Assembly: GCA_023132435.1 (NCBI GenBank)
Contig: JAGLYF010000165.1
Location: forward strand, 1-32,524
Length of the DNA: 32,524 nt
Source of the DNA: Calditrichia bacterium
GTDB taxonomy: Bacteria > Calditrichota > Calditrichia > JAJRVZ01
Direction of reading: 5' to 3'
Shown here: piece by piece, positions 4,174-26,456 of the stretch
Position numbering within the stretch: the stretch's first letter is position 1
Layout of the letters: every line of letters begins with the position of its first letter
Position numbers and translations under genes: made by a program
Notes under the pieces: model-generated
Told to the model about the DNA's origin: nothing
Seen by the model: the letters and a program-made list of their open reading frames with translations, nothing else
Database searches by the model: none

Positions 4174-4196
4174 AACGACAAACGGCATTTAGCACT

Positions 4197-4372
4197 GCCC
4201 TGTATCTAAACGTGGTGCTTATTTAAGAACCAACACCTTTAAACAGGGAGCTCGGCTCTGGGCGGCAAATGTATGCCCCATGAGGGGAAACGTGACCCGT
4301 TCAGGAGGGTACCCATCATACTGGAAACAGGTTCAAAAATGGCATTTCACGTTTAATACAGGGCTTTTTTTT
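4197..4372 (+). ncRNA. ssrS: 6S RNA (RNA polymerase regulator)
   Basis: The gap between zapA and rny folds into one long hairpin, as 6S RNA does. The 18-base arm at 4197-4214 (GCCCTGTATCTAAACGTG) pairs with 4348-4364 with a single unpaired base. It closes a roughly 168-nt RNA of the usual 6S length, and eight T residues at 4365-4372 follow as an intrinsic terminator. Inside, GGTG/CACC (about 4214-4236) can form the small side hairpin seen in the 6S central bubble, and several GC-rich stems (4255-4315) can form the terminal arm. 6S RNA mimics an open promoter and sequesters housekeeping holoenzyme in slow growth. Evidence is structure, length, terminator and the zapA neighbour; a covariance search would be decisive. 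Confidence 0.82.
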
Positions 4373-20133: not shown

Positions 20134-21150
20134 CTAAAATGTACCAACATTTTCTGTATAGTGAAGTTTAATTATTGCTACTCCCTCAGACTGGGTAGGA
20201 AAATCTTTTGCAATAAATTCCAGTTTCGCATGATGGCCATCAACTGTTTTAACTATGTAAACATTTGGAACCGGGGATAGAGTATGTGTTGCCGGATTAT
20301 ATGACCACCAGGAATCACCAATAGCCAGGGCAGTGGTTGAATCATCAACAACATACCCGTCGGCCGGAATAGCTTGAACACTGTCAAATTCGACATCCTC
20401 GTACATTATTGCCGAACAATCTCCCGGACCGCTTGTTCCACCGTTTAAATTTACGGTGAGATAGGTAGTTTTGATATCCCAATCCATCGATGTGGTTTCA
20501 TCTGTTACTTCAACGATTTTTGCCTCTTTCAGATTAAAATATACCGATTCAATTGTCGATAAGGTAATTTCTGTCGTAAGTGTACGGCCTATAGTAGACT
20601 GGGTTTCATACGAGGATGGTGAACTTACTTTTTCGATATAAATGGTTAATTCACCATTTGTACGGCTTGTAAAAACCGCGTCGGATATTTTAAATTTATA
20701 AAACTCACCATCGGTAGATCTAATTACATAAAAATGATCAAGCGGATTAACGGTGTGGGTGGTTACATCATAATAATACCACTTTTCACCAATGTAACCG
20801 CCATTTTGATCATCGGTCATATAGGTGATTTCCGGAGCATTTTTTACATCTTCAAATGCTATTCCTTCTACCTTTGCCGCATAAACGGAGCCGGGAGCGG
20901 TAGAGCCACCATTGAGATGAATCCGCGTTAATATATCGAGCGAGAGATCCCAACCTGTATCTAAGAGGGGATCGGTTACTTCAACTACAGATTTTTCGGC
21001 AAGATTAATGTAATAAATCTGATCGTAAGTCACCGCAAGTTCCATTGGTTCTCCAATTGGTTCAGGTCCAAGTGGCTCATTTTCATTTGTGCTACATCCA
21101 AATAAAACGAATAAACTGAAGATTAAAAAAATAATCGATAATAGATTCAT
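20134..21150 (-). CDS. Lipoprotein with two tandem HmuY-like domains
   Basis: A 338-residue lipoprotein. A signal peptide ends in the lipobox VLFGC with Cys19, so it should be lipid-anchored. Two similar units follow, at about 42-190 and 190-335. Each has YxNLxExxxVEVTD, a WD strand, LNGGxxxPG, an acidic middle part and a [YF]xVxxxDGxxxKLx strand. This is the pattern of HmuY, the haem-binding partner of TonB receptor HmuR in Porphyromonas. HmuY proteins normally have one such domain, so the tandem form is unusual. The HmuY haem-ligand histidines could not be placed with confidence. A strong AAGGAG site precedes the ATG. It lies downstream of the TonB receptor in the same direction. Confidence 0.8.
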   Translation of the reverse strand: MNLLSIIFLIFSLFVLFGCSTNENEPLGPEPIGEPMELAVTYDQIYYINLAEKSVVEVTDPLLDTGWDLSLDILTRIHLNGGSTAPGSVYAAKVEGIAFEDVKNAPEITYMTDDQNGGYIGEKWYYYDVTTHTVNPLDHFYVIRSTDGEFYKFKISDAVFTSRTNGELTIYIEKVSSPSSYETQSTIGRTLTTEITLSTIESVYFNLKEAKIVEVTDETTSMDWDIKTTYLTVNLNGGTSGPGDCSAIMYEDVEFDSVQAIPADGYVVDDSTTALAIGDSWWSYNPATHTLSPVPNVYIVKTVDGHHAKLEFIAKDFPTQSEGVAIIKLHYTENVGTF

Positions 21151-21381: not shown

Positions 21382-23472
21382 TTAGTTTAATTCAATGCCT
21401 ACAAATATTATACGTCCTGGTAGAGCGACATAATTACGGTTTTGATAATCAAATATATTATTTACTTCCACGAATACCGAGAGAGGTTTATATATCCTTT
21501 GGAGAAGACGGGTATTCCACAGAGCGTACCAGGATGCGATGATTTCCTGACCATGAATATTAACTAAAAGACGCTCACCAATATATCGCCAGCGCATATT
21601 TCCGGAAAATCCAGGTTTGGCAAAATCCCAATCAAATTTCACTCGTGCTGAATGTTTCGGGCGATTATAAAAGGGCTCATCGCTTGATAAATCAAGTGTT
21701 TCGGTATAAACGTATCCCATTGTTAAACGATAATATGTCCAAAAACGAAACAAACTATCAAATTCAAAACCCTGTGTTTTTCCTTCGGTAATATTCTCAT
21801 ATGTATAATACTGAATACCATCCGTATCCTGGTAGAGGAATAGGCTATTTATCATGTTATCAACATGGTTATGAAAAAAATTGACTTTAAATATTGTCTG
21901 TGGGGAAACGTGATATTCAAGGCCAAAATTTAAACTTCTTGAAGACTCAGGATGAAGTTCAGGGTTTCCATAAGCAATGTATGGTTGCGAAGTTAAACCT
22001 GAATGATCAAGGTCAAGATAGAGTTCTATAAAATTTGGCGCTCTGAATCCACTACCATAAGACCCACGAATTCGAAAAGCATCAGTTGGTTTATATAAAA
22101 ATCCTATTTTGGGTGATAAATGCCATCTAAATTCGGAGTGATAATCAGCACGGATTCCAAGATTAAACTCAATAAGCTTATAAAAAATCTCATCCTGCGC
22201 GTATATAGAAACATTTTTTACTGATTTTTCACCGCTTTCCACACGATTTGATTGCAACCAATTATAAGAGCCATCTCCCCCAATGGTAAAAATATGATTA
22301 GCAATAACACGATTATATCTAAATTCTGTACGACTCAAAGTTTCGATGTTTTTAACATAGGTATCAGCTCGATTAATTTCTTTTGTGAAGGATGTATGAT
22401 ATAGACGAAATTTGAAATTGGAGCGATTTTTCATAATCCAGTCATTGCTGGCATTGATATACCAATTTTGTGTATCTGTTATCCGATTACCGCCATCAAA
22501 CCCTGCTTGTCGCTGATTGAAATACTCACCACTGACTTGGACTGAATAAAATTCTGATGATTTATATTTTAGTTTGGAGAATAAATTAAAATTCTTGAAT
22601 GCATCAGCAGTTGTGTTAGCTGTTGTAGGATCTAAATCATAACCATCCGCTCTTTTTGTTTCTGCGGTAAATAGGGCAGATGTTTTCTTATGGGCCAGTG
22701 ATAGGTCAACTCTGGCATTTCTCGATTCATAACTACCAACACTGGCATTAAAAAAGTAATTAAAACTATCTTCTGGGTCCTTGGTAATAATATGAATTAC
22801 CCCGCCAACAGCCTCACTCCCATACAAAGATGAAGCAGCCCCTTTAACAATCTCAATTCTTTCGATATTTTGCACAGAAAGCCGGGATAAATCTAACTTT
22901 CCGGCAATCCTTCCAATAACCGGAACACCGTCTACTAATATCAGCGTATGTTCATCGTTCAGGCCCTGCAATTGGGCGCTTAAGATCCCACCACGCGCTC
23001 CATCCTGTGTAATAATAATTCCGGCTCTTTCTTCTAATACTTCACCAACATTTTTAGCACCTAAATTCATTATTTCATCAGCGTGAATTACTTCAGTTGA
23101 TACCGGGCTGTCTTTAATCAATCGCCTAGATCTTGTCCCTGTGACGACAATATTATCGGCCTGATAGATTTCTTCTTCCATTTCCAGGTCACACCTGAGT
23201 TGTTCATCAGGTTTGAGGATAATGGTCGGGCTGTTCCTTAATTTATAACCAATATACGTTGCGATAATTGCATATTCACCTGCCGGTACATCCTTTATCT
23301 CGAACTCACCTTTATTATTCGAAGCTGCACCAAAGGAAGTATTCTCCAAATAGATATTAGCTCCAATAATAGGCGCTCCATTAATAGAAGAGGATATTTT
23401 GCCGACAACCACTGAAGCAAAGAGATGATTCGTAATAAATAAAAATAACACAACAATAAGTGATAATTTCAT
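21382..23472 (-). CDS. TonB-dependent outer-membrane receptor (haem/iron type)
   Basis: A 696-residue outer-membrane receptor. A signal peptide (about 1-19) is followed by a carboxypeptidase-D-regulatory-like beta domain at about 20-105 (GKISSSINGAPIIGANIYLE). The plug follows at about 110-225 (NIVVTGTRSRRLIKDSPVSTEVI; VEIVKGAASSLYGSEAVGGVIHIITK), then a 22-strand-type barrel containing FRAPNFIELYLD and ending GRIIFVGIELN. Such receptors import haem, siderophores or cobalamin with TonB-ExbBD energy. The HmuY-like lipoprotein gene next to it points to haem. GAGGAAAG precedes the ATG. A candidate sigma-54 promoter lies about 33 bases upstream and tandem dyads about 145-180 bases upstream. Confidence 0.93.
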   Translation of the reverse strand: MKLSLIVVLFLFITNHLFASVVVGKISSSINGAPIIGANIYLENTSFGAASNNKGEFEIKDVPAGEYAIIATYIGYKLRNSPTIILKPDEQLRCDLEMEEEIYQADNIVVTGTRSRRLIKDSPVSTEVIHADEIMNLGAKNVGEVLEERAGIIITQDGARGGILSAQLQGLNDEHTLILVDGVPVIGRIAGKLDLSRLSVQNIERIEIVKGAASSLYGSEAVGGVIHIITKDPEDSFNYFFNASVGSYESRNARVDLSLAHKKTSALFTAETKRADGYDLDPTTANTTADAFKNFNLFSKLKYKSSEFYSVQVSGEYFNQRQAGFDGGNRITDTQNWYINASNDWIMKNRSNFKFRLYHTSFTKEINRADTYVKNIETLSRTEFRYNRVIANHIFTIGGDGSYNWLQSNRVESGEKSVKNVSIYAQDEIFYKLIEFNLGIRADYHSEFRWHLSPKIGFLYKPTDAFRIRGSYGSGFRAPNFIELYLDLDHSGLTSQPYIAYGNPELHPESSRSLNFGLEYHVSPQTIFKVNFFHNHVDNMINSLFLYQDTDGIQYYTYENITEGKTQGFEFDSLFRFWTYYRLTMGYVYTETLDLSSDEPFYNRPKHSARVKFDWDFAKPGFSGNMRWRYIGERLLVNIHGQEIIASWYALWNTRLLQRIYKPLSVFVEVNNIFDYQNRNYVALPGRIIFVGIELN

Positions 23473-23504: not shown

Positions 23505-23521
23505 TACAAAAATCATACCAA
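23505..23521 (-). promoter_or_regulatory. Candidate sigma-54 promoter for the TonB receptor gene
   Basis: On the minus strand the sequence TTGGTATGATTTTTGTA fits TTGGCACGNNNNTTGCA at ten of thirteen defined positions, with the invariant GG and the correct spacing. The -12 element is GT rather than GC. It predicts a transcript start near 23494 and a 22-base leader containing the ribosome-binding site. It is supported by the adjacent sigma-54 activator gene and by upstream dyads at a distance typical of enhancer sites. Confidence 0.55.
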
Positions 23522-23616: not shown

Positions 23617-23633
23617 TGTCTCATAATGAAACA
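23617..23633. promoter_or_regulatory. Activator-binding dyad 1 (candidate enhancer site)
   Basis: TGTCTCATAATGAAACA is a 17-bp dyad; seven of eight base pairs in its half-sites match the inverted sequence TGTTTCAT/ATGAAACA. Its centre is about 107 bp upstream of the candidate sigma-54 -24 element of the receptor gene. Confidence 0.6.
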
Positions 23634-23637
23634 ATAA

Positions 23638-23654
23638 TGTTCCTAAATGAAACA
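23638..23654. promoter_or_regulatory. Activator-binding dyad 2 (candidate enhancer site)
   Basis: TGTTCCTAAATGAAACA shares its right half ATGAAACA and its TGT edge with dyad 1; its left half is more degenerate (five of eight). The two centres are 21 bp apart, two helical turns, so two activator dimers would lie on the same DNA face. It ends 11 bases before the ccsA-like start, so occupancy could also repress the activator's own operon. Confidence 0.5.
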
Positions 23655-23665
23655 TAATATTTAAA

Positions 23666-24484
23666 ATGGTGATAACATTTCTAAAAGTTATTTCTCCGCT
23701 TGCCTATCTGGTTAGTGCTATCTTTTTCTACATTTATTTTAATCAACGTGATAAAGCCTACTTGAAAAGGGCAAGATTTCTCGATCATACAGCCATTCTG
23801 ATTCATGCCATATTCTTAATTGTATTAACGTTCGAGATAGGACATTTACCATTAGCAGATGCTTTTCAGGCACTCTCGGTATTTATGTTTATATTTGCGA
23901 TACTGAATAAGATTATCGTTCGGGAAGACAAGGATTATTCATTGGGTTTCTTTTATTCAGGTATTTTATTTGTTTTACAAGGTATTTCTGTTCTATTTAT
24001 CTCAGAAAACGCTATTCTCCCTGATGTTTTAAAGGATGTTGCTTTTGAAATACACGTCATTTTCAACCTGGTAGGATACGCGGCCTTTTCCTCTGCCTTT
24101 CTCCTCGCTACAATGTATCTGTTTTTAATTCATGAAATAAAAAGCAACAAAATGGGTTATTTCTATGACAGACTTCCGTCATTGGCGTATTTGGAACAAT
24201 TAAACTATAATGCCATTCTGATAGGATTTATATTCAATTCCATTGGAATACTTATTGGATCATTTATAGGAAGTTCAGCGTGGGGAACTTATTGGACATG
24301 GGATCCTAAGTTGACCTCTGCTTTATTGGCCTGGATTTTATATTTGATATCGATTATCGGAAAAAAACGATATCGTTGGCATGGTAGAAGAATTGCTCAT
24401 TTCAGTCTTTTAGGATTTTTCTGGATTTTATTTTCAATGTTGATTATTACGCAATTCTTTTCGGGAATTCACTCATTTAAGTAA
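23666..24484 (+). CDS. CcsA/HemX-type cytochrome c assembly membrane protein
   Basis: A 272-residue inner-membrane protein with about eight hydrophobic segments. The tryptophan-rich WWD-type motif is WGTYWTWDPK at about 206-215, and conserved-type histidines include His130 (FEIHVIFNLVGYAAF) and His245 (RRIAHFSLLG). The family comprises CcsA/ResC/CcmC, which carry haem to apocytochrome c, and HemX, an integral protein encoded beside hemA that affects GluTR levels in Bacillus. No ccs1/resB partner is present. The following gene, seven bases downstream, has a HemA-like N-terminal half, so the arrangement mirrors a hemX-hemA operon. HemX-like function is therefore favoured, but that is inference. 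Confidence 0.85.
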   Translation: MVITFLKVISPLAYLVSAIFFYIYFNQRDKAYLKRARFLDHTAILIHAIFLIVLTFEIGHLPLADAFQALSVFMFIFAILNKIIVREDKDYSLGFFYSGILFVLQGISVLFISENAILPDVLKDVAFEIHVIFNLVGYAAFSSAFLLATMYLFLIHEIKSNKMGYFYDRLPSLAYLEQLNYNAILIGFIFNSIGILIGSFIGSSAWGTYWTWDPKLTSALLAWILYLISIIGKKRYRWHGRRIAHFSLLGFFWILFSMLIITQFFSGIHSFK

Positions 24485-24491
24485 GAATATT

Positions 24492-26456
24492 ATGCATATA
24501 TATCAATTTAGTATTAAAAAACCGAAATCCGGCTTAACCAAGAGAGATGATTGGGTCAAAGATTGCTATCGTAAATTTAAAAGATCAGATATAAATGAGC
24601 TTTTTATAATCCGGCAGAATAATCTGGTTGAAGTGTTTGCGGTAGGTTCAAATTCAAATGTCATCATTAAACCCTTGAATGACTACATCGGTCAAAAATT
24701 GAATAGCCCTCTCCATACTACGGATAATTCACTTGTCGATCATGAAACCTTAAAGTATTTTTTCGAGCTTTTAATAGGCCGAAAAGAAGGCTTACCTGCT
24801 GATCCGCGAGTCTTGTTACAAATACGGGAAGAATTTAACCTTGCTCTTGATGAGGGATCCGTTGGATTGATTTTAACAAAAATGTACCGTCAGGGCGAGA
24901 AAATAGGTAATGATCTTCAGAATGATCCTATTATTAGCAAGAATTGTGTCGTCTATCCTGAAGTATTGCTAGATATTGCGAAGAAAATATCCGGCAATTT
25001 TGATGATTTCCAATTTATTTTTATTGGCGCACAGATTTCTGATATGCAGGAGGTTGTTAATGCTGTAAAAAGAACTGAAAATCACAAATATTATTTATAT
25101 CATGATGATTTTTCTAAAGCCTATCAATCCGGGATCGAACTAGGATGTATTCCAATCAACAGAACACAATTTAAAAATCAGCTTGATGATAATACTATAT
25201 TAATAGATTTTGAAAAATCAGGTGTTAAAATAATTAACTGGATCATTCCTGCAGCAAAAAGAAATAAAAATCTATTATATATTTATTTTGATTTATCAAA
25301 AAATAAACAGGTTGCAGCATCCTCAAATTCCCCCAATATATTTATCCAGTCACATACACAAATAACTGGATTGATTGATATTCACACCAGAAACAGGAGG
25401 GACTATCTTAAGTCAATTTATCCTGGTTTAAAGGATGAAATCAGATCATTTTATGCCTGGTTATATTCGGATGATCGTTTTGTTTTTAATAATATTGTTT
25501 CTACCGACCGTCGCATGCAAAAAGTATTAGAACTCATGCGTCGAATAGCGCCATCCGATATCAATGTATTAATAACCGGAGAGACGGGAACCGGTAAAGA
25601 ACTTATCGCCAGAGCCATACATCAAAACAGCCTGCGTTCAGATGCTCGTTTTGTTGCAGTAAATTGCAGCGCCATCCCCGAAACACTATTAGAAGGGGAA
25701 TTATTCGGCTATGAAAAGGGCGCCTTTACCGGTGCAATTTCTGCAAAAAGAGGGTTGATTGAAATCGCTTCAGGTGGAACCTTATTTCTGGATGAAATCG
25801 GTGATTTACCTCCCATCATCCAGGTGAAATTATTACGTGTGCTTCAGGAACGGGAAATCCTGCAAATTGGTAGCACGACACCGGTAAAAGTCGATATCCG
25901 GCTGGTAACAGCAACCAACCACAATTTGGAGGAATTAACTCAGGAAGGTAATTTCAGATCGGACTTATTTTACCGGGTAAATACAGTGCAGATTAATCTG
26001 CCGGCATTAAGGGAGCGCCGGGAAGATATACCGATATTAACAAAGTATTTTATAAATCGATTAAACCGTAATAATGGAAAACAGATTAATAAAATTTCAG
26101 AAGAAGTAAACAAAAGATTTATCTCGTATGATTGGCCAGGTAATATCAGAGAATTAGAAAATATTATTGAGCGTGCTTTTGCTGTTTCGATTGGCGAAGA
26201 AATCACAGTGACTGATCTGCCTACACGTCTTCAGTCTTATCCGATCAGAAATTACACGTCCTGGAAAGAATCAGTCCCAGTGGATAGTTCACTAAAGAAA
26301 ATAGAAGCGGAGCATATCAGAGATCTTCTCATCAATAAAAAAATAAAATTGTCTGAAGCAGCAAAAATTTTGGGTATCGGACGAACAACGCTGTGGCGCA
26401 AAATGCGCGAGTTTGGTATTTCCAGAGATCAAATTGATGATAATATTGAGGTATAA
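24492..26456 (+). CDS. Sigma-54 activator with a degenerate HemA (GluTR) sensor domain
   Basis: A 654-residue protein. The C-terminal half is a standard sigma-54 activator: Walker A GETGTGKE (363-370), sigma-54 contact loop GAFTGA (410-415), Walker B LFLDE (431-435), and a Fis-type helix-turn-helix (620-640). Residues 1-326 replace a receiver or GAF domain and align with glutamyl-tRNA reductase. The strand around HIYQFSIKK, VEVFAV, PRVLLQIREEF, LTKMYRQGEKIG, DIAKKI, FIFIGA and the spinal-helix end SFYAWL match HemA positions nearly without gaps. The catalytic STCNR motif is replaced by a Cys-free R-Q-N-N-L (41-45), and GAG is GAQ. Catalysis is therefore unlikely; sensing of haem or another tetrapyrrole-pathway signal is inferred. 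It is probably co-transcribed with the CcsA/HemX-like gene. Confidence 0.9.
   Translation: MHIYQFSIKKPKSGLTKRDDWVKDCYRKFKRSDINELFIIRQNNLVEVFAVGSNSNVIIKPLNDYIGQKLNSPLHTTDNSLVDHETLKYFFELLIGRKEGLPADPRVLLQIREEFNLALDEGSVGLILTKMYRQGEKIGNDLQNDPIISKNCVVYPEVLLDIAKKISGNFDDFQFIFIGAQISDMQEVVNAVKRTENHKYYLYHDDFSKAYQSGIELGCIPINRTQFKNQLDDNTILIDFEKSGVKIINWIIPAAKRNKNLLYIYFDLSKNKQVAASSNSPNIFIQSHTQITGLIDIHTRNRRDYLKSIYPGLKDEIRSFYAWLYSDDRFVFNNIVSTDRRMQKVLELMRRIAPSDINVLITGETGTGKELIARAIHQNSLRSDARFVAVNCSAIPETLLEGELFGYEKGAFTGAISAKRGLIEIASGGTLFLDEIGDLPPIIQVKLLRVLQEREILQIGSTTPVKVDIRLVTATNHNLEELTQEGNFRSDLFYRVNTVQINLPALRERREDIPILTKYFINRLNRNNGKQINKISEEVNKRFISYDWPGNIRELENIIERAFAVSIGEEITVTDLPTRLQSYPIRNYTSWKESVPVDSSLKKIEAEHIRDLLINKKIKLSEAAKILGIGRTTLWRKMREFGISRDQIDDNIEV

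Follow-up and report, generated by a model that had tools for sequence, protein, structure and literature searches.

We describe a Calditrichia protein that is likely (probability of roughly 0.82) to be a sigma-54 enhancer-binding activator controlling heme supply, with a dead glutamyl-tRNA reductase (GluTR, HemA) as its sensor. GluTR is the first enzyme of heme synthesis, and Calditrichota are a little-known bacterial group. At the sequence level, the data show a GluTR-derived domain, an invariant recognition helix, and dyad-promoter modules at genes for heme synthesis and for TonB receptors and HmuY. That the protein, hereafter the fusion, regulates heme supply through these tandem dyads is likely, although there are no expression, binding, or ligand data. 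Its gene lies within the 32,524-nucleotide stretch of DNA that we analyzed (the window), together with the features listed in Table 1.

Table 1. Features of the window, by position
Feature	Positions	Strand	Evidence
Two-domain HmuY-family (hemophore-like) protein, behind the receptor; proposed target	20134..21150	-	
Outer-membrane receptor, TonB-dependent, with a barrel of the heme/B12/catecholate type; proposed target	21382..23472	-	
Promoter of sigma-54 type, TGGTATGATTTTTGTA, directed toward the TonB receptor	23505..23520	-	matrix from other genomes
Enhancer-like pair of dyads in tandem, TCTCATAATGAAA and TTCCTAAATGAAA, with a spacing of 21 bp	23619..23652	.	3 mismatches in total to TTTCA-N3-TGAAA twice
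HemX/CcsA-like membrane protein (PF01578), upstream of the fusion	23666..24484	+	family match, 7.7e-34
Fusion ORF	24492..26456	+	
Sensor domain, residues 1-326, a degenerate GluTR (HemA) without the catalytic Cys/His; comprises the N-terminal domain, the Rossmann domain, and the spinal helix	24492..25469	+	profile, hhalign, fold, alignment
AAA+ sigma-54 activation domain plus lid, residues 336-582	25497..26237	+	Pfam, motifs
Fis-type HTH, residues 601-641	26292..26414	+	HTH_8 match

A GluTR-derived domain on a sigma-54 activator

The fusion is a complete sigma-54 activator of 654 amino acids, and its ORF boundaries agree with those given in a first-pass annotation that had been made from sequence alone. 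It matches Sigma54_activat (PF00158; 5.4e-70, residues 336-501), the AAA lid (6.6e-27, residues 507-582), and HTH_8 (4.9e-08), and its AAA+ domain carries the Walker A motif GETGTGKE and an intact GAFTGA loop. The recognition helix, [GS]RTTLWRK, is invariant in all 13 fusions with a complete C-terminus.

Taken as a single sequence, the N-terminal half gives only a weak GluTR signal, with a Pfam GlutR_N match of 0.0088 that falls under the cut-off and, as the sole phmmer match in the whole PDB, the GluTR structure 1gpj (E 0.041). Comparisons that draw on homologues are strong where these are weak, and we therefore regard the assignment as decisive. A profile of eight homologues matched the GluTR entries 1gpj (1.6e-18) and 4n7r (1.3e-15), every other PDB entry scoring 0.69 or above, and hhalign against 10 canonical HemAs gave a probability of 99.8% (E 1.8e-30) over 306 columns, covering residues 22 to 328. 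The AlphaFold model (pLDDT 79.5) again retrieved 1gpj as the top hit in a fold search (E 1.5e-14, TM 0.74 on the query). When residues 1-327 were compared with related whole genomes, the matches were canonical HemA genes, with STCNR and in hemX-hemA-hemC operons, and further fusions. The core fold is retained up to the spinal helix, which leads straight into the AAA+ domain. We regard a GluTR-derived sensor on a sigma-54 activator as very likely.

The first-pass annotation had claimed that residues 1-326 are HemA-like up to the spinal helix, and this held by profile, hhalign, and predicted fold. Its anchor stretches also proved to be in register in a 40-sequence alignment, with W323 aligning with the invariant HemA Trp and Q110 with the Gln of GEPQI..Q. 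It had named a missing GluTR match or an unrelated fold as refuting results; with GluTR matched by both profile and structure, neither occurred. The search that it proposed for further GluTR-sigma-54 combinations yielded 15 fusions in total.

Distribution and origin of the fusion

The fusion is present in 13 of the 40 Calditrichia genomes and in two KSB1 genomes. A scan of a genome collection, made with a six-sequence alignment that is blind to members resembling the window's, returned named records that were Calditrichota and candidate division KSB1 MAGs. Most of the genomes are MAGs (that of the window is 92% complete). One alternative explanation is that the N-terminal half is an artefact of assembly or gene prediction, or that its resemblance to GluTR arose by chance. 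The weak single-sequence matches favor this view, but the copies come from separate genomes, and the profile, profile-profile, and fold comparisons all give GluTR. The recurrence of one architecture across the class therefore rules against an assembly fusion, and this explanation is all but excluded. In one genome (G029) the fusion gene (L030 9246-11188) has a frameshift in the AAA+ domain, reflecting either decay or a MAG error.

A branch with support of 100/99 sets all the fusions apart in a tree that includes 15 fusion domains and 25 canonical ones. A single origin is likely, though not proven, since the tree has no root and several of the fusions sit on long branches. Canonical HemA and the fusion occur together in nine genomes (G002, G006, G008, G011, G013, G018, G026, G029, and G035), and some relatives without heme genes (G010 and G030) are also without the fusion. 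We suggest that a hemX-hemA pair was duplicated, that the HemA copy then lost its active site and dimerization domain, and that an activator module of AAA+ and Fis-HTH domains was attached directly to the spinal helix of this degenerate copy. Duplication of the pair would fit with the fusion-adjacent HemX-like proteins forming a group of their own (see below).

Loss of enzyme features and what the domain could sense

In the window's fusion, Asn43 and Tyr89 occupy the positions of the catalytic Cys and His, respectively. The Cys is absent from all 15 fusions and the His is kept in only one, while the alignment shows no conservation among fusions of the active-site Ser, Thr, Asn, Arg, and Glu motif, of the GEPQI signature, or of the residues lining the NADPH and glutamate pockets. 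The C-terminal dimerization domain is missing in 15 of 15, with the AAA+ domain in its place after the spinal helix. What remains includes the Trp close to where the spinal helix ends and, in the window's fusion, a GAQ (residues 179-181) in place of the GAG nucleotide motif. These results bear out two earlier claims, that the catalytic Cys motif STCNR was lost and that the protein is probably a pseudo-enzyme (given the loss of the Cys, the His, and the dimerization domain); a third, loss of the GAG motif, held in part, as GAQ remains.

The first-pass annotation had listed heme, NADPH, or Glu-tRNA as possible signals, and our analysis narrows this list in favor of heme status. That the domain still senses NADPH or glutamyl-tRNA, its ancestral substrates, draws some support from the retained GluTR fold and the partly surviving nucleotide motif. 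Set against this are the lack of residue conservation at the catalytic and nucleotide sites and the universal absence of the dimerization domain, which make both ligands improbable as signals and this alternative very unlikely. Heme status is suggested instead by the identity of the target genes, namely the hem operon and the HmuY/TonB receptor genes. No His or Cys is common to all 15 fusion domains in the alignment; a common axial heme ligand is therefore wanting, and direct heme binding by the domain has not been shown.

Tandem dyads and sigma-54-type promoters

Tandem copies of the dyad TTTCA-N3-TGAAA, spaced 19-22 bp or about two helical turns apart, were first seen in the intergenic DNA behind or before the fusion gene; in eight loci they lie behind it and ahead of the next gene. 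Sigma-54-type promoters of the form TGGCAY-N5-TTG[TAC] follow 75-230 bp downstream, the distance being 75-150 bp in the intergenic DNA where the dyads were first seen.

The dyads also recur at the canonical heme synthesis genes. A tandem dyad lies upstream of the hem operon in seven of nine fusion genomes (G002, G006, G008, G011, G013, G018, and G035) but in none of the 13 class relatives that lack the fusion and have enough DNA upstream of the operon to be counted (Fisher 2e-4, or 1e-3 when a genus represented by three species is counted once). Genome-wide searches led to genes that had not been preselected. In G011, exactly two perfect tandem dyads were found, at the fusion locus and at the canonical hem operon, and in G002 a tandem dyad with one mismatch precedes the hem operon. 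The two perfect tandem dyads of G018 lie at the hem operon and at a lipoprotein-TonB operon on a contig other than that of the fusion, and in G014 the tandem-dyad match, some 15 kb away from the fusion, is at an operon encoding a lipoprotein, a TonB receptor, and a membrane protein. There is no dyad upstream of the G029 hem operon, and that of G026 has three perfect single dyads (L135 2762, 2872, and 3070) that are 110 and 198 bp apart and thus not in tandem.

Of 21 target regions, 19 have a tandem dyad, compared with 0.03% of Markov-shuffled regions, and all 21 have a sigma-54-like site, compared with 10% of shuffled regions. These figures are flattering because the regions were selected in part for the sites that they carry and also supplied the promoter pattern; the hem-operon contrast and the rank of the window promoter are fairer tests. 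For the same reason, we rely in the window on a promoter matrix built from 18 sites, all from other genomes, with the window site left out, and elsewhere on the dyads. By this matrix, TGGTATGATTTTTGTA ranks first among 65,018 window positions (14.4 bits); it starts 48 bp before the receptor ATG and lies 98 bp beyond the tandem dyad. That dyad has a chance expectation of 0.02 per window and is the sole intergenic tandem dyad in its genome, facing the TonB receptor-HmuY pair. Although the window dyads are imperfect, the two other matches in their genome, on contigs 236 and 280, fall within ORFs and were dropped.

Use of sigma-54 remains an inference because the -12 element is mostly GT or GA rather than the classical GC. 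A search with the strict classical consensus GG-N10-GC gave only scattered matches, mostly in coding sequence. The gene for sigma-54 itself, rpoN, is present in the window's genome (PF04552, 7.8e-61); it was not found in G014.

It remains conceivable that the tandem dyads serve another regulator and that the fusion controls something else, as there are no binding data and further activator genes lie near some of the loci. The hem-operon contrast, the eight loci with dyads between the fusion gene and its neighbor, the invariant recognition helix, and promoters of a type requiring such an activator all speak against this, and we consider it unlikely.

Proposed target genes and heme-gene inventory

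In the window, the genes for the TonB receptor and the HmuY-family protein diverge from the HemX-like gene. The HmuY-family protein matches PF14064 (3.8e-26) and the HmuY structure 3h8t (6.3e-11), heme binding being inferred from the family, and the receptor scores slightly higher as B12-type than as hemin-type. The order HemX, fusion, TonB receptor, HmuY is seen in G009, which represents another lineage that lacks heme genes, while G029, G007, and both KSB1 genomes have a conserved lipoprotein, a TonB receptor, and mostly a 241-amino-acid membrane protein downstream.

Canonical HemA, HemB, HemC, and ferrochelatase had no match in the window's genome (G000), G009, or G014, and neither canonical HemA nor ferrochelatase was matched in G007. 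As no heme-copper oxidase was found in the window's genome, heme use by this organism is not shown.

The HemX-like neighbor

At 10 of the 15 loci, some of them in genomes in which HemA was not detected, a HemX-like gene is the immediate neighbor of the fusion. The fusion-linked HemX-like proteins form their own clade apart from canonical HemX (support 98/93), and His130 and His269 are invariant across all 30 HemX sequences, the HemX-like partner included. In Staphylococcus aureus, HemX keeps HemA scarce while heme is plentiful, and HemA increases when heme runs short; how HemX exerts this control is undefined, and hemX is reportedly never found without gtrR (PMC5801465). Whether HemX is the partner that carries the heme signal to the fusion is, in our judgment, a toss-up, as the evidence is adjacency and regulation of a GluTR-fold partner is inferred.

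A competing possibility is that the pseudo-GluTR domain is itself the sensor, binding heme or another tetrapyrrole (cobalamin or a porphyrin intermediate), with the HemX-like neighbor a passenger or engaged in a separate heme-handling role. In its favor, one fusion lineage without an adjacent HemX still has dyads at hem and TonB operons, and the receptors score as both hemin and B12 type. Against it stand the want of a conserved His or Cys, the persistence of HemX-fusion adjacency across Calditrichota and KSB1, and the grouping of fusion-linked HemX in one clade. On balance we lean slightly against direct sensing, which is still possible, most of all for the fusions that have no HemX next to them. 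In one family (L028, L029, L052, and L087), a conserved glycosyltransferase gene lies by the fusion instead of HemX, which is not adjacent there, and the target sites are elsewhere in the genome.

Proposed mechanism

In our preferred reading, the activator would bind the dyads as side-by-side dimers and loop to the sigma-54 polymerase. When heme is short, it would turn on heme synthesis or uptake; in heme-replete cells, by analogy with S. aureus HemX/HemA (PMC5801465), the HemX-like protein may keep the pseudo-GluTR domain inhibited. The output would be the hem operon where one exists and elsewhere a TonB receptor with HmuY or another lipoprotein, so that in the window's genome, apparently without heme synthesis, it would be the TonB receptor-HmuY operon. 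DNA binding by the fusion, activation (including ATPase activity), its sign, and its signal are all inferred, and our preference for activation at heme shortage over heme excess is moderate.

A bolder version, on which we would not bet in either direction, holds jointly that a duplicated HemX-HemA pair became a membrane-coupled sensor of heme status in which HemX passes the signal to a dead HemA, that this HemA drives sigma-54 transcription of heme synthesis, and that lineages losing heme synthesis kept the sensor while its output shifted to heme scavenging.

Relation to known systems

The fusion shares with GluTR HemA/GtrR (PF05201/PF01488) its fold, its domain order up to the spinal helix, and a gene beside hemX, but it lacks the catalytic Cys and His and the dimerization domain and is joined to AAA+ and HTH domains. 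With NtrC, NorR, and DmpR, it has in common the AAA+ domain with a GAFTGA loop, the lid, the Fis-type HTH, and paired dyads before GG-N10-G promoters; those activators carry a receiver, GAF, PAS, or V4R sensor where the fusion has a GluTR remnant. The HemX-HemA pairs of Bacillus subtilis and S. aureus likewise place a PF01578 membrane protein beside a GluTR-fold protein with a link to heme supply, with HemX altering HemA abundance post-transcriptionally and reportedly never occurring without HemA (PMC5801465). In the pair described here, by contrast, the HemX-like protein has a transcription activator as its partner, and the two genes stay together in genomes with no detected HemA. As in Porphyromonas gingivalis HmuR-HmuY, a TonB receptor and an HmuY-family protein are encoded together in the window, which differs in having two HmuY domains in one protein and in the proposed sigma-54 control by a pseudo-HemA activator.

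The component families are thus known. The open-access literature searched describes neither this architecture nor a protein of this kind controlling hem operons through sigma-54, and to that extent the earlier claim that the architecture is undescribed held; the combination and the circuit, in which a dead pathway enzyme appears to govern the pathway and its replacement, are new to that literature. To our knowledge, no earlier sigma-54 activator senses through a dead enzyme of the pathway that it regulates. If the proposal is true, a biosynthetic enzyme has turned regulator and outlived its pathway. The control of HemA by HemX would also become testable, with a HemA fold next to HemX wired to an assayable transcriptional read-out, and phyla in which genetics is scarce or absent would gain a defined DNA motif with which to map heme regulation.

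Additional features of the fusion-associated loci

Several further elements recur at these loci. A lipoprotein of about 160 amino acids (SGTVTFxGTWPxxGEIQV), without a Pfam family, precedes the TonB receptor in the place of HmuY (L030 11416-11856, L091 11394-11870, L093 7962-8444, L094 12971-13453, L133 7171-7659, and L134 4114-4644); it is a predicted beta-sandwich for which a fold search gave no clear structural relative. Behind the TonB receptor lies a membrane protein of about 240 amino acids with no family above cut-off (L030 14201-14914, L051 3724-4449, L091 14154-14879, L094 15781-16506, and L134 1015-1728), a possible heme-uptake component. One genus (L088, L089, L090, and L091) encodes PAS-repeat proteins of about 970 amino acids after the fusion or its TonB operon.

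In four genomes (G002, G011, G013, and G035), a strong terminator hairpin occurs about 90-150 nt past the sigma-54-type site under the dyads, marking what may be sigma-54-dependent small RNAs belonging to the heme regulon (L027:2470-2836, L088 3790-4180, L089 8177-8559, and L090 7249-7637). These candidates match no Rfam family, and the three hairpins tested have fold z scores of -3.0 to -4.4. The window also contains a 6S RNA at 4194-4368 on the plus strand (Rfam RF00013, 52.4 bits).
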